DNA of 64,000 nt from Firmicutes bacterium HGW-Firmicutes-7 (GTDB lineage: Bacteria; Bacillota; Clostridia; Lachnospirales; Vallitaleaceae). Location of the stretch: positions 1 to 64,000 of the forward strand of contig PGZO01000014.1 in assembly GCA_002841375.1 (NCBI GenBank), written 5' to 3'. Below, one piece after another: positions 55,383-59,280 of this stretch (position 1 is the first letter of the stretch; every line of letters begins with the position of its first letter). The position numbers were made by a program, and so were the translations under genes. Below the pieces are notes generated by a model. It was not told the DNA's origin, searched no databases, and saw nothing but the letters and a program-made list of their open reading frames with translations.

Positions 55383-55512
55383 ATCAAATCTTATTGTAAT
55401 TACAAATAAAATATGATAATATATTATTTGTTTAGACGAGAGAATTAAGTAAGTTTAAGGATGTCTGGGTATGATACTGTGTTAATAAAAATATTTTATG
55501 AGAGGTATGCTT

Positions 55513-56802
55513 ATGACAAAAAGAATATTGATGTATCTAATGGTGCTAATAAGCATCGTTACACTATCAGCATGTACGAATCAATCGGTAGAGACCATAA
55601 GTGATGAGATTGTAAATGAAATAAACGAACAAGTGGAAGTGCCCATAATAGTACAGGAACCTATTATTCGATTGGCGACGCTTAAAACGGTAGGAGACAT
55701 TATGTTTCATCGTAATCAACTAACTAGATCTTATAATCGTGAAACAGGTTTATTTCAATTTGAGGATACTTTCGAGAAGGTAAAGCGTTATTTGATGGAT
55801 GCAGATTATACAATTGGCAATCTTGAAACGACCTTTGGGGGAGCCAACGGGGCGTATGATTTTAATGTAGAAGAACGATTTGAAGGGTATAGTGGTTATC
55901 CCTGTTTTTCTACACCTGATATTGCTGCTGAGAATTTAAGTGCGGCTGGATTTGATTTGCTAACGACTGCAAATAATCATTCCTTAGATAGTAAAGAAAT
56001 AGGGCTCATTAGAACCTTAGATATTCTAGATCAAAACAACCTTCAGCATGTTGGAACCTATAGAACGAAGGAGGAAGCTGATCAAGTTGAAATAATTGAT
56101 ATAGGTGGTATTAGGTTTGCTTTTGTGAGCTTTACATATGCAATGAACGGATTTACCCCTTCTGAAGGCAAAGAATATATTATAAATTCATTAGACATGT
56201 ACGAACCAGAAAAAGAAAAACAAATGTGTGCGTTAGTGAAAAAAGCCGCTGATTTAAATCCGGATTTTGTAGTGGTTATGCCTCATTTTGGTAATGAATA
56301 TATGGATCTACCAAATTCTTATCAAGAAAATCTTGTTGATGCTTTATTTGAATCAGGAGCCGACATTATTTATGGTAGCCATCCCCATGTTCTACAACCC
56401 ATTGATATTCGTGAGCTTATTAGAAGCGACGGAACAATAGATCAGGGCATTGTTATTTATTCCTTAGGTAATTTTATATCTTCACAAATGCATGAGCCAG
56501 GTGTTAATAAGGATCTTGGTGTAATTATGGGTTTGGATTTTAAGAAGATTGATAATGAAAAAGCAACAATAGAGGGATTGACCTTAGTTCCAACCTACAC
56601 TTATTGGAGCAAAGAAGTGATTGGGATTCTACCTGTTTTGGAAACACTAGAAAAAATAAACAATCATAATTTGACAATGCCAAATTATGACATACAAAGA
56701 CTAGAATTTGCTGAAAATTATACAATAACACATTTAATGACCTATCTGGAAGACTATAATTACAGCCTTGAGAACAATCAATATTATATTCCAATAAAAT
56801 AA
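55513..56802 (+). CDS. CapA-family (PGA_cap) metallophosphatase-like lipoprotein
   Basis: CapA-like proteins have a calcineurin-like fold and are linked to poly-gamma-glutamate capsule work, though many have no proven role. The 429-residue protein has a lipoprotein signal (LISIVTLSAC, Cys near residue 20), then VGDIMFHRNQL, GNLETTFGG, TANNHSLD, MPHFGNEY, GSHPHVLQPID and SLGNFISSQ, the usual CapA metal-site series. ATG 55513 has AGAGG at 7 bases; two further in-frame ATGs upstream (55498, 55507) lack a binding site. No capBC genes are near. Confidence 0.88.
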   Translation: MTKRILMYLMVLISIVTLSACTNQSVETISDEIVNEINEQVEVPIIVQEPIIRLATLKTVGDIMFHRNQLTRSYNRETGLFQFEDTFEKVKRYLMDADYTIGNLETTFGGANGAYDFNVEERFEGYSGYPCFSTPDIAAENLSAAGFDLLTTANNHSLDSKEIGLIRTLDILDQNNLQHVGTYRTKEEADQVEIIDIGGIRFAFVSFTYAMNGFTPSEGKEYIINSLDMYEPEKEKQMCALVKKAADLNPDFVVVMPHFGNEYMDLPNSYQENLVDALFESGADIIYGSHPHVLQPIDIRELIRSDGTIDQGIVIYSLGNFISSQMHEPGVNKDLGVIMGLDFKKIDNEKATIEGLTLVPTYTYWSKEVIGILPVLETLEKINNHNLTMPNYDIQRLEFAENYTITHLMTYLEDYNYSLENNQYYIPIK

Positions 56803-56826
56803 TATGCATTTAAAGTCAAAAATGTA

Positions 56827-56854
56827 TTGACGAATTCGAGAAATATGATATAAT
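56827..56854 (+). promoter_or_regulatory. Sigma-A promoter of rpsU-yqeY
   Basis: TTGACG (56827-56832) and TATAAT (56849-56854), spacing 16 bases; predicted start near 56861, i.e. at the first base of the leader helix. Confidence 0.8.
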
Positions 56855-56860
56855 TTATAA

Positions 56861-56920
56861 TAGTGCTAAAATTTATTCTCCGAAGTTGTAGGCCAGCACT
56901 AATTACAACTGGAGGGAGGT
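56861..56920 (+). promoter_or_regulatory. Candidate pseudoknot leader controlling rpsU translation
   Basis: TAGTGCT (56861-56867) is complementary to AGCACTA (56895-56901), and AGTTGTA (56884-56890) to TACAACT (56904-56910); the two 7-bp helices are interleaved, an H-type pseudoknot. CTCC (56878-56881) can extend the second helix by pairing with GGAG (56911-56914) across a two-base GA bulge, hiding the first half of the Shine-Dalgarno sequence. The predicted transcript starts at the first helix. The structure was found by eye; S21 as its ligand is inference. Confidence 0.55.
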
Positions 56921-56930
56921 TGAATTGGCT

Positions 56931-57104
56931 ATGTCAAATGTGGTTATAAGAGACAATGAAACCCTTGATAGTGCTCTTAGAAGATTTAAAAGAAATTGTG
57001 CTAAGGCGGGTATCATGCAGGAGATTCGTAAAAGAGAACATTACGAAAAACCAAGCGTAAAGCGTAAAAAGAAATCAGAAGCGGCAAGAAAACGTCGTTA
57101 CTAA
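56931..57104 (+). CDS. rpsU: 30S ribosomal protein S21
   Basis: S21 sits near the anti-Shine-Dalgarno end of 16S rRNA and affects initiation. The 57-residue product has the family sequence [40 protein letters not shown], all basic and full length. ATG 56931 gives the usual MSNV start; TTG 56925, 2 codons earlier, sits at a better distance from GGAGGGAGG and cannot be excluded. The next gene yqeY follows after 22 bases, as in Bacillus. Confidence 0.95.
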
Positions 57105-57126
57105 TTTTCGTGAGGATGATTAAGTT

Positions 57127-57570
57127 ATGTCATTAAAAGAACAGTTATTTGAAGAACTAAAAAATGCCATGAGAGAAAAAAACACCTTACGTAAAAATAC
57201 AGTTCAGTCTATACGCACCGCGGTACTTCAAGTGGAAAAAGATGACCATGTTGAGCTATCTGATGATGGAGTTATTCAAATAATAGCTTCACAACTAAAA
57301 AAGCGAAGGGCTGCATTGCCCGAGTATGAGAAAAGTGGAAGAGAAGATCTGATTTCTGAACTAAAACAAGAAATTGAGATGCTAATAGAATATCTACCAC
57401 GACAGTTATCAGAAGAAGAGATTACTGTAATCGTACAGCAAACAGTTGATGAATTAGGTATCACAACACAAAAAGACATGGGCAAAGTGATGTCTGCTGT
57501 CGTCGCCAAAGTAAGCGGAAAAGCTGATAACAAACTTGTAAGTCAAATTGTAAGAAGTATATTGGCATAG
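57127..57570 (+). CDS. yqeY: GatB/YqeY domain protein
   Basis: YqeY proteins share the tRNA-binding tail domain of GatB; their own role is not settled. The 147-residue product shows LKEQLFEELKNAMREKN, LRKNTVQSIRTAVLQ, YLPRQLSEEEI and DMGKVMSAVVAKVSGKAD. GAGGATG lies upstream of the ATG. It pairs with rpsU across most Firmicutes and is followed by a terminator. Confidence 0.94.
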   Translation: MSLKEQLFEELKNAMREKNTLRKNTVQSIRTAVLQVEKDDHVELSDDGVIQIIASQLKKRRAALPEYEKSGREDLISELKQEIEMLIEYLPRQLSEEEITVIVQQTVDELGITTQKDMGKVMSAVVAKVSGKADNKLVSQIVRSILA

Positions 57571-57575
57571 ATAAT

Positions 57576-57607
57576 AAAAGCTATCGATAATAATCGGTAG
57601 CTTTTAT
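57576..57607 (+). terminator. Intrinsic terminator after yqeY
   Basis: AAAAGCTATCG (57576-57586) pairs with CGGTAGCTTTT (57595-57605), one wobble, loop ATAATAAT, then TTTTATT. Confidence 0.85.
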
Positions 57608-57691
57608 TCGTGTGTCACAAAGTCCAAGGTCACTGCGTTAAATACTAGAAACGCCAAAGCGTAAACTAGAAAAATTCTGACTAGTATAAGA

Positions 57692-57720
57692 ACATATTTT
57701 ATTCCTCCAATTAATAAACT
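57692..57720 (+). promoter_or_regulatory. Candidate sigma-E promoter of yqfC-yqfD
   Basis: ACATATT (57692-57698) and AATAAACT (57713-57720), 14 bases apart, resemble the sigma-E boxes GHATATT and CATACAMT (6 of 8 in the second). yqfCD is sigma-E-controlled in Bacillus. The match is imperfect. Confidence 0.35.
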
Positions 57721-57748
57721 ATAACAGAACATATGAATGAGGCTTGGC

Positions 57749-58024
57749 ATGAAGAAAAAAGAAAAAAAGAAAAAAAAAATTAACTTTACCGAAATATTTG
57801 AAGTACCTAAAGATGTCATATTAGGAGAAGCAATAATCACGCTCACTGGCAAAAGAGAAGCCGTCATAGAAAACTACAAAGGGATCGTTGAATACACAAA
57901 TGAATACATCAGAATACTTACTAAAAATGGCGTTATTGAATTTAAAGGATCTAATTTTAATATTACATATCTTACAAATGAAGAAATGAAAGTGACAGGA
58001 TCCATTATTGAAATTAATTATTAA
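57749..58024 (+). CDS. yqfC: Sporulation protein YqfC
   Basis: YqfC is a small conserved protein of the mother-cell sporulation programme with unknown biochemistry. The 91-residue product has a very lysine-rich start and then FTEIFEVPKDVILGEAIITL and REAVIENYKGIVEY, which define the family. ATG 57749 has GAGG at 6 bases; an ATG 12 bases upstream (57737) lacks one. Its stop nearly abuts yqfD. Confidence 0.9.
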   Translation: MKKKEKKKKKINFTEIFEVPKDVILGEAIITLTGKREAVIENYKGIVEYTNEYIRILTKNGVIEFKGSNFNITYLTNEEMKVTGSIIEINY

Positions 58025-58041
58025 TGTTTAGGGAGGTAGTG

Positions 58042-59280
58042 ATGATCCTATCGTTATGGAAATATATGCAAGGATATGTAGTTATAAGAGTAAGGGGATA
58101 TTCACCTGAAAGATTTATCAACCTTTGTGCAAATAAAAATATTTACATCTGGAATGTGAGAAAGATTGCTGATGGTTATATATTTTGTATAAGTGGAAAG
58201 GCTTTTTTTATGTTATCACCTATAGCAAAAAAAACCAAATGTCGTGTAAAAATATTAAAAAAAATTGGTATGCCCTTTAAGTTTTTAAAAGTCAAAAGAA
58301 GGAAATACTTTTTATATGGGTTATTGATAAGTATAGCTGCTGTCATCATGTTGTCATTTTTTGTTTGGAGAATAGAAATAGAAGGGAATATGAAATATAC
58401 AACGGAAGAAATTACCGCTTATTTAACCAAAGAAAATGTTACAATAGGAAGTTTTAAACCTAAAATACAATGTTCAAAGTTGGATGATCAACTGTTATCT
58501 CATTTTAATCAGACAATGTGGGTTAGCAGTGAATTAATTGGTACGAAGCTTATTATTCATATTAGAGAAGGTGTTGAATCGGAAGTAATAATCGATGATA
58601 AAAAACCATGTGATATTGTAGCAACAAATGCGGGCACAATTGTTTCAATAATTACACGAAAAGGAACACCATTAGTGAAACAAGGAGACGTGGTTGAAAA
58701 GGATACCGTTTTAGTTAGCGGAACATTAGAAATTAAAGAATTAACACAATTAAAAGCAGTAGAATTTACTCATTCAGATGCTGATATTCTTTTGAAAACA
58801 AAGTACCCATATTCAGATACTATCTCCTATCAATATATAGAAAGAAACTATATTAAAGATCAACAAAAAACAGATAAAGCATTACAGTTTTTCAACCATA
58901 GAATTAACTTATTAAAACCTAAAATTAATTCTATGAACTATGATATTGTCGAAAAGCAGAAACAAATTGAACCTATTAAAAACTTTTATTTGCCAATTTA
59001 TTATATGACCACAACTTTCATGATTTATGAAGAGGTTGAAAAAACCTATACAGTTGAAGAAACGGAAGAAATATTAAAAAGTCGTCTTAACTTGCATATG
59101 GAAAAACTTGAAGAAAATAATATACAAATACTCTCGAATGATGTAATATTTAAAGAAGATAAAGAGGCATTTATTGCCACAGGTTCAATTTATGTAATTG
59201 AAAAGAATGGACAAGATAAATTTTTTGACGAATTAACACGGAGGCAGGGATATAATGAGTATTTCACAGAAGAGGATTGA
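58042..59280 (+). CDS. yqfD: Sporulation protein YqfD
   Basis: YqfD is required for proper late sporulation in Bacillus. The 412-residue protein has an N-terminal cytoplasmic part (ILSLWKYMQGYVVIRVRGYSPERF), one membrane segment (about 92-113), and a long external domain with a POTRA-like start (EGNMKYTTEEITAYL). ATG 58042 has GGGAGGT 4 bases upstream; an ATG at 58024 overlaps the yqfC stop but has no binding site. It overlaps phoH by 26 bases. Confidence 0.9.
   Translation: MILSLWKYMQGYVVIRVRGYSPERFINLCANKNIYIWNVRKIADGYIFCISGKAFFMLSPIAKKTKCRVKILKKIGMPFKFLKVKRRKYFLYGLLISIAAVIMLSFFVWRIEIEGNMKYTTEEITAYLTKENVTIGSFKPKIQCSKLDDQLLSHFNQTMWVSSELIGTKLIIHIREGVESEVIIDDKKPCDIVATNAGTIVSIITRKGTPLVKQGDVVEKDTVLVSGTLEIKELTQLKAVEFTHSDADILLKTKYPYSDTISYQYIERNYIKDQQKTDKALQFFNHRINLLKPKINSMNYDIVEKQKQIEPIKNFYLPIYYMTTTFMIYEEVEKTYTVEETEEILKSRLNLHMEKLEENNIQILSNDVIFKEDKEAFIATGSIYVIEKNGQDKFFDELTRRQGYNEYFTEED

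Follow-up and report, generated by a model that had tools for sequence, protein, structure and literature searches.

Ribosomal protein bS21 is a late-joining, exchangeable protein situated where the mRNA meets the tail of the 16S rRNA. How Bacillota set the level of this protein was not found in the literature searched. In the window, the whole stretch of 64,000 nucleotides of DNA that was analysed, the bS21 gene rpsU follows a short leader with two interleaved complementarities next to the Shine-Dalgarno (SD) sequence. The question raised by this locus is whether the leader forms a pseudoknot that hides the SD sequence, as the initial annotation had proposed, and whether such a structure could control rpsU. 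A short leader common to many Lachnospiraceae and occurring in two topologies would make control of the bS21 level directly testable.

The rpsU locus and its promoter

The features of the locus, with helices 1 and 2 designated P1 and P2, were as follows.

56827 to 56832, forward strand: -35 element TTGACG (not TTGACA) of the rpsU promoter, likewise in 121 of the 144 leaders scored
56849 to 56854, forward strand: -10 element TATAAT preceded by TG, from the promoter scan
56863 to 56867, forward strand: 5' strand of P1, conserved, core GTGCT; 56861-56862 extend P1 here and are not conserved
56877 to 56881, forward strand: anti-SD element TCTCC, usually ACCC in relatives; 131 of 145 leaders have CCC or CTCC
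56884 to 56890, forward strand: 5' strand of P2, AGTTGTA, core AGTTG, from complementarity and relatives
56895 to 56899, forward strand: 3' strand of P1, AGCAC, lying within the P2 loop and thus giving a pseudoknot, from complementarity and relatives
56904 to 56910, forward strand: 3' strand of P2, TACAACT, core CAACT, from complementarity and relatives
56911 to 56919, forward strand: double SD sequence GGAGGGAGG, paired in part with 56877-56881, from sequence and relatives
56931 to 57104, forward strand: rpsU, ribosomal protein bS21 (PF01165, E 1.7e-24; TIGR00030)
57127 to 57570, forward strand: yqeY (PF09424, E 1.3e-43)

The promoter, TTGACG-16-TATAAT, is of the sigma-A type with TG ahead of the -10 element, and its 3' end is at 56854. 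It ranked first among 15 promoter-like sites in 3 kb, for which shuffled sequences gave 15.3. That transcription starts near 56861 is better argued from its conservation in related genomes than from the scan. The rpsU mRNA has a 5' end, predicted from this promoter, that coincides with P1, and GTG[CT] was located 7 or 8 nt past the -10 element in 132 of 144 leaders. A transcription start downstream of 56884, which the initial annotation had regarded as fatal to the pseudoknot, is at odds with this position.

An in-frame TTG at 56925 is a possible alternative start of rpsU. Judging from their spacing, rpsU and yqeY are probably co-transcribed. The gene order between 52650 and 60835 is alanyl-tRNA synthetase, CapA-like protein, rpsU, yqeY, a YabP-family gene, yqfD, phoH and ybeY. 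An upstream reading frame from GTG 56863 was rejected as conserved coding sequence, since leader lengths vary freely among relatives. An attenuator was also rejected; the three terminator-like sites in 55500-58500 were all located outside the leader.

Complementarities in the leader

Both of the 7-bp complementarities described before were exact. TAGTGCT (56861-56867) is a perfect complement of AGCACTA (56895-56901), and AGTTGTA (56884-56890) of TACAACT (56904-56910). CTCC at 56878-56881, described as an extension of the second helix, was also present opposite GGAG at 56911-56914. When 56861-56919 was shuffled 20,000 times with dinucleotides preserved, interleaved complementarities of 7 and 7 bp arose in 5 shuffles. 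Within the window they occurred in 33 of the 63,941 stretches of 59 nt, a count that includes overlapping stretches of the site itself. The fold of the leader alone was unremarkable (z -1.20), as 31 of 200 shuffles folded equally well, and minimum free energy was dropped as evidence.

The conserved core consists of P1, GUGC(N)/(N)GCAC, of P2, (C)AGUUG/CAACU(G), and of CCC or CUCC opposite the SD sequence GGAGGGAGG. The proposal of an H-type pseudoknot with two 7-bp helices needs two qualifications. The interleaved helices are conserved in position and sequence, but the outer two pairs of P1 are not; in the alignment A1 described below, 67 of 76 leaders had the second of these unpaired and 26 had the first unpaired. 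With 7 bp in both helices the third loop would have 2 nt, while with the conserved core it would have about 6 nt, which should be easier to build.

Distribution among relatives

Related loci were collected by a match to the rpsU protein, and the 140 bases upstream were inspected. The protein was matched in 55 of 59 related genomes, 186 of 196 genomes of the class and 21 of 22 of the family. Many members of the window's order shared one layout, in which a TTGACG promoter is followed by GTGC at the predicted 5' end. An A-rich linker, then ACCC or CTCC, and then CAGTTG come next; beyond a short loop lie GCACAA, CAACTG and GGAGGGAGG. Of the 21 rpsU-bearing genomes in the family of the window, 18 had this pseudoknot layout, and the three genomes of genus g7 were without it. 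At the g7 loci (L118, L119 and L122) rpsU lacks the usual promoter, P1 and P2 of the family.

Among the named loci, for which the best 80 of 581 rpsU matches were used (L031-L110), 56 leaders were assigned by eye to the pseudoknot form and 16 to a nested form; three were cut off by contig ends (L053, L056, L076) and five belonged to neither form (L081, L095, L102, L106, L109). Most of these loci are titled Lachnospiraceae, among them Blautia hansenii, Robinsoniella peoriensis and Fusicatenibacter saccharivorans, and the titles point to Lachnospirales as the order. After duplicate leaders were removed, 145 distinct leaders were assigned to the pseudoknot form, again by eye, with the order P1-5', A-rich linker, CCC/CUCC, P2-5', P1-3', P2-3' and GGAGGG. 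Left out beforehand were L003 (cut off), L021, L113-L115, L117-L130 and L134-L160. The 145 retain L064, L078, L100 and L132, the nested-looking L204 and a few leaders with a poor P2.

The initial annotation had suggested a covariance-model search, and such a search gave matches within the order. Model R1 comprised P2 and the CCC/GGG closure, with P1 outside the model structure. It matched 108 of 392 genomes of the order at E <=0.001, with one match in each, and all 45 matches fetched abut rpsU, directly upstream. The genome of the window gave a single match, at rpsU, even at E 10. In 398 genomes of the phylum three matches were obtained, all from the same order; the large covariance-model searches were run with stricter filters, by which weak matches are lost.

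The double SD sequence GGAGGGAGG preceded rpsU in 118 of the 145 pseudoknot-form leaders. It also stood before rpsU in Clostridia that lack the pseudoknot, in 32 of 44 rows (L113-L160; 41 genomes, three of them twice), and it is therefore more widespread than the structure. Among leaders from other orders of Clostridia (L134-L157), inspected by eye, some, L137 and L141 included, had SD-facing hairpins of different sequences and are possibly unrelated or distant rpsU leaders.

Pairing and covariation

Alignment A1 was made with MAFFT from 78 distinct leaders. For the 14 pairs of the two full helices, 80.1% of the cells were paired, compared to at most 43.2% when the pairs were slid, and double changes occupied 46 cells, compared to 23.5 after shuffling (reached in 0 of 500 shuffles). 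Two of the five pair-count measures failed to exceed the shuffles, namely pairs with a double change (7 versus 5.2; 62 of 500) and further pair types (16 versus 18.1; 484 of 500). With the core structure and the same 78 leaders, 89.7% of the cells were paired in P1, 89.6% in the closure and 85.6% in P2. Double changes were found in 46 cells compared to 21.4 after shuffling (0 of 500), and further pair types again did not rise above the shuffles (407 of 500).

A second alignment contained 97 of the 145 leaders, aligned to R1 after near-duplicates were thinned. Because the fit was made to P2, the figures for that helix are biased in favour of the structure. In it, 87.1% of the cells were paired, compared to at most 45.4% when slid. 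Double changes affected 9 of 12 pairs, versus 4.8 after shuffling, and 68 cells, versus 31.1 (0 of 500 each), while further pair types were not above the shuffles (78 of 500). The excess of double changes over column shuffles was located mainly in P2. When P2 3' strands were swapped among 33 distinct cores, in a test that needs no alignment, p was 0.0041.

As column shuffling takes no account of the tree, a tree-aware test was also applied. It re-implements the idea of R-scape with Fitch substitution shuffling and is not R-scape itself, and its E-values are rough; 30 nulls were used for the 145 leaders (1,830 column pairs) and 100 for the nested form and for a block alignment of 143 leaders, without L011 and L204. 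Among the 145 leaders the first of the 1,830 column pairs was 65/110 (E 0.00), which neighbours the helix pair and is not itself a pair of the structure. The P2 pair 65/111 was second (E 0.07), with U-A in 122 and C-G in 19 sequences. In the block alignment the P2 pair was first of 1,891 (E 0.65), and no more than two changes on the tree are required for its switch. The fifth pair of P1 was not significant; among the seven commonest types were A-T in 55, T-A in 30 and T-G in 11 leaders, with 39 mismatches.

Lack of covariation had been named as grounds for abandoning the structure, which is not refuted on this point, since some covariation exists. Double changes exceeded the shuffled and slid controls, but the tree-aware values of 0.07 and 0.65 for the P2 pair are suggestive and not conclusive. 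Covariation is no test of P1, given how little its core varies; this helix is supported by conservation of its mostly invariant core. A few odd cases were also observed: a single P2 variant, CAGTCT/AGACTG, in L196, P1 as GTGT/ACAC in L235, and both helices kept despite extra hairpins inserted in the loops of L029, L111, L069 and L211. The pseudoknot is supported by conservation, position, these odd cases and the nested relatives; no one statistic is decisive.

A nested sister form

In other Lachnospiraceae the P1 hairpin closes before AAUAACCC, and is followed by CAGUC...GACUG-AA-GGGAGG and then by rpsU. This nested form was found at loci L027, L055, L057, L063, L073, L079, L085, L087-L089, L091, L094, L099, L103, L105, L107, L110 and L239-L268. 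Each pair of CCC/GGG was kept in all 42 of 42 distinct nested leaders. In an alignment of these 42 fitted to the model, double changes occurred in 6 of the 7 pairs of P1, and changes on both sides in 38 cells compared to 7.8 after shuffling (0 of 500). An unfitted alignment of 17 nested leaders gave a small excess, with 5 double-change cells versus 2.4 (24 of 500), and a slide of +2 gave 8. The tree-aware test ranked a pair of P1 second of 3,741 (E 0.63), below a column pair downstream of the SD sequence (E 0.40).

Model R2, built solely from 17 nested leaders, matched 66 of the 392 genomes of the order, of which 32 also had an R1 match; R1 and R2 together covered 142 of the 392. In all 32 shared genomes both models matched at the same place when compared by eye. 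A search of the window's own genome and family with R2 gave no match. One R2 match in another order (L269; 1 of 148 genomes of the class, E 0.044) was rejected, as the best match to rpsU at that locus was not rpsU. Leader L204 looked intermediate, with the nested P1 and the CAGTT/AACTG of the pseudoknot form. From the same-place matches and this leader, the two topologies look like versions of one element. Part of the cross-recognition by R1 and R2 is explained by the shared sequence around the SD.

Accessibility of the Shine-Dalgarno sequence

The register of the SD pairing differed between descriptions. The initial annotation had placed CUCC on GGAG at 56911-56914, the best nested fold of the window's leader paired UCUCC with GGAGG at 56915-56919, and CCC/GGG of the relatives lies in between. 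The mean cost of opening GGG[AT]GG in the 145 leaders was 4.02 kcal/mol, compared to 3.51 kcal/mol with shuffled upstream sequence; these are nested energies, with the pseudoknot outside the model. Of the 145 leaders, 92 had a cost above the mean of their shuffles, and 8 had a cost above every one of the 20 shuffles.

The claim that the SD sequence is hidden is therefore borne out to a modest degree only, and constitutive hiding by nested folding alone was rejected, the opening cost being just slightly above that of shuffled sequence. Given this small difference, closure of the leader is probably conditional, as would suit a protein-controlled switch without proving one. Part of the double SD sequence may stay free.

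Proposed function and alternatives

The comparison of leaders establishes a predicted 5'-terminal H-type pseudoknot, with P2 adjoining the CCC/CUCC:SD pairing, as conserved upstream of rpsU. Judged from this arrangement, translational control via the SD sequence is likely. On balance we favour the reading that the element is a cis-regulatory rpsU leader whose closed form is stabilised by bS21 and lowers initiation. As the ligand, bS21 is our best guess, at odds of about even to likely.

Excess bS21 would bind the leader and stabilise it when closed. The internal duplex of SD and anti-SD sequence in this form would resemble the mRNA-16S rRNA duplex next to bS21 on the 30S subunit. Closing of the leader would reduce initiation on rpsU, and perhaps also on yqeY. 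When bS21 is scarce, the weak P2 and anti-SD pairing would open and ribosomes could bind.

An analogy for recognition by bS21 is found in OLE RNA. The bS21 protein of Halalkalibacterium halodurans binds OLE RNA at P6, which is described as a mimic of an SD/anti-SD duplex; inversion of either conserved G-C pair of P6 cuts bS21 binding substantially, and inversion of both gives the poorest binding (passages of PMC12054373). OLE RNA (RF01071) is encoded in the genome of the window, outside the window itself (C17:13998-14613, L273, E 3.7e-134), and was present in 17 of the 21 genomes searched, this one included. The rpsU leader may link the control of rpsU to a large RNA encoded in the same genome. 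A more specific scheme is possible, though doubtful: the operator would be the internal SD/anti-SD duplex, presented in two topologies and recognised by bS21 as on the 30S subunit and on OLE RNA, and leader, OLE RNA and ribosomes would compete for bS21.

Clostridia generally use SD sequences. A rather unlikely alternative is a real cis-regulatory leader that does not respond to free bS21: 30S subunits lacking bS21 would initiate better on the double SD sequence, and the pseudoknot would set the threshold. In Bacteroidota, bS21 is reported to be autoregulated through bS21-free ribosomes and strong SD sequences (passages of PMC9976891), and the double SD sequence was frequent here both with the pseudoknot (118 of 145) and in the knotless Clostridia rows (32 of 44; 41 genomes, three twice). 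The Bacteroidota mechanism, however, needs occlusion of the 16S tail by bS21, bS18 and bS6 in ribosomes for which SD sequences play no part, and it leaves the constrained pseudoknot and the nested sister form unexplained.

It is less probable still that the 5'-terminal structure protects the mRNA from 5'-end-dependent decay and that the SD pairing is incidental. The position of P1 at the predicted first transcribed bases (132 of 144 leaders) would fit such a role, but a simple hairpin would suffice for it, and the conserved CCC/CUCC and the SD-adjoining P2 would be superfluous.

Leaders of ribosomal protein genes usually respond to one of the proteins encoded in the same operon, which counts against a different ligand. 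That YqeY, another ribosomal protein, or temperature or magnesium acting on a simple RNA switch takes the place of bS21 seems improbable, slightly more so than decay protection. Within the closed form, the nested part has marginal stability, yqeY is the next gene after rpsU, and unpublished evidence for binding of YqeY to OLE RNA is mentioned in PMC12054373; the same passages, however, report an affinity of bS21 for an SD/anti-SD-like duplex.

That nothing but promoter, leader and SD sequence is conserved, with complementarities due to shared ancestry and no RNA structure, is hardly credible: in its favour are a P1 core with almost no variation and a tree-aware result for the pseudoknot leaders that was not significant on the anchored alignment, but double changes in 9 of 12 pairs (4.8 when shuffled), the swap test (p 0.0041), a nested-form P1 that varies yet stays paired, and loop insertions that spare both helices all speak against it.

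Comparison with known systems

With Rfam 15 and the gathering thresholds of its families, the window had no match, and 56780-57000 gave just four matches, all far below threshold. At the leaders of relatives' loci (18 and 17) there was likewise none; the lone match elsewhere was a glycine riboswitch in L049 (341-416), about 1.6 kb upstream of rpsU. The words rpsU and S21 are absent from the main texts of PMC7247131, PMC11109978, PMC6429828 and PMC2864571. An rpsU leader of this kind was not found in the literature searched; PMC11109978 counts 30 ribosomal leader candidates. The statement of the initial annotation that no well-established S21 leader family is known for Firmicutes agrees with these searches. 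On comparative grounds, the rpsU leader is a genuine, conserved element, undescribed as far as the literature searches reach.

Known riboswitches for preQ1 are H-type pseudoknots that sequester the SD sequence. As in these, the last strand of the rpsU leader includes or adjoins the SD sequence, and the leader has the two interleaved conserved helices of an H-type pseudoknot. In contrast to them, the rpsU leader is without a metabolite gene, its examined matches were upstream of rpsU, and no Rfam match was obtained.

The duplex of OLE P6, GGG/CCC, imitates an SD/anti-SD pairing, and the rpsU leader pairs a real SD sequence with an anti-SD-like element. However, OLE is a separate RNA of about 600 nt and the leader a short 5' UTR element. 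In addition, P6 and the leader have opposite strand orders and carry the internal loop on opposite sides of the G-C pairs, as judged by eye from the consensus and three relatives' copies, and the leader was rejected as the same motif on these two points. The analogy would be a functional one only, without shown sequence homology.

Autoregulation of bS21 has been described for Flavobacteria in the review PMC10931766, in the passages on this group. The system of Flavobacterium and other Bacteroidota (PMC9976891) shares with the present locus rpsU and a strong SD sequence, here the double SD sequence. It differs in depending on bS21-lacking ribosomes and 16S tail occlusion, and the relevant passages of PMC9976891 describe no leader structure.

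The leaders of ribosomal protein genes collected by Eckert and Weinberg in 2020 (PMC7247131) are a known kind of element close in form, being conserved structured 5' UTRs positioned for control of expression. The rpsU leader occupies the same place, at a predicted 5' end and abutting rpsU in all 45 matches fetched. It differs from that collection, whose main text is without S21 or rpsU, in being a pseudoknot with a nested sister. Going by its conserved layout, the rpsU leader would add to this kind of element an example with two topologies.
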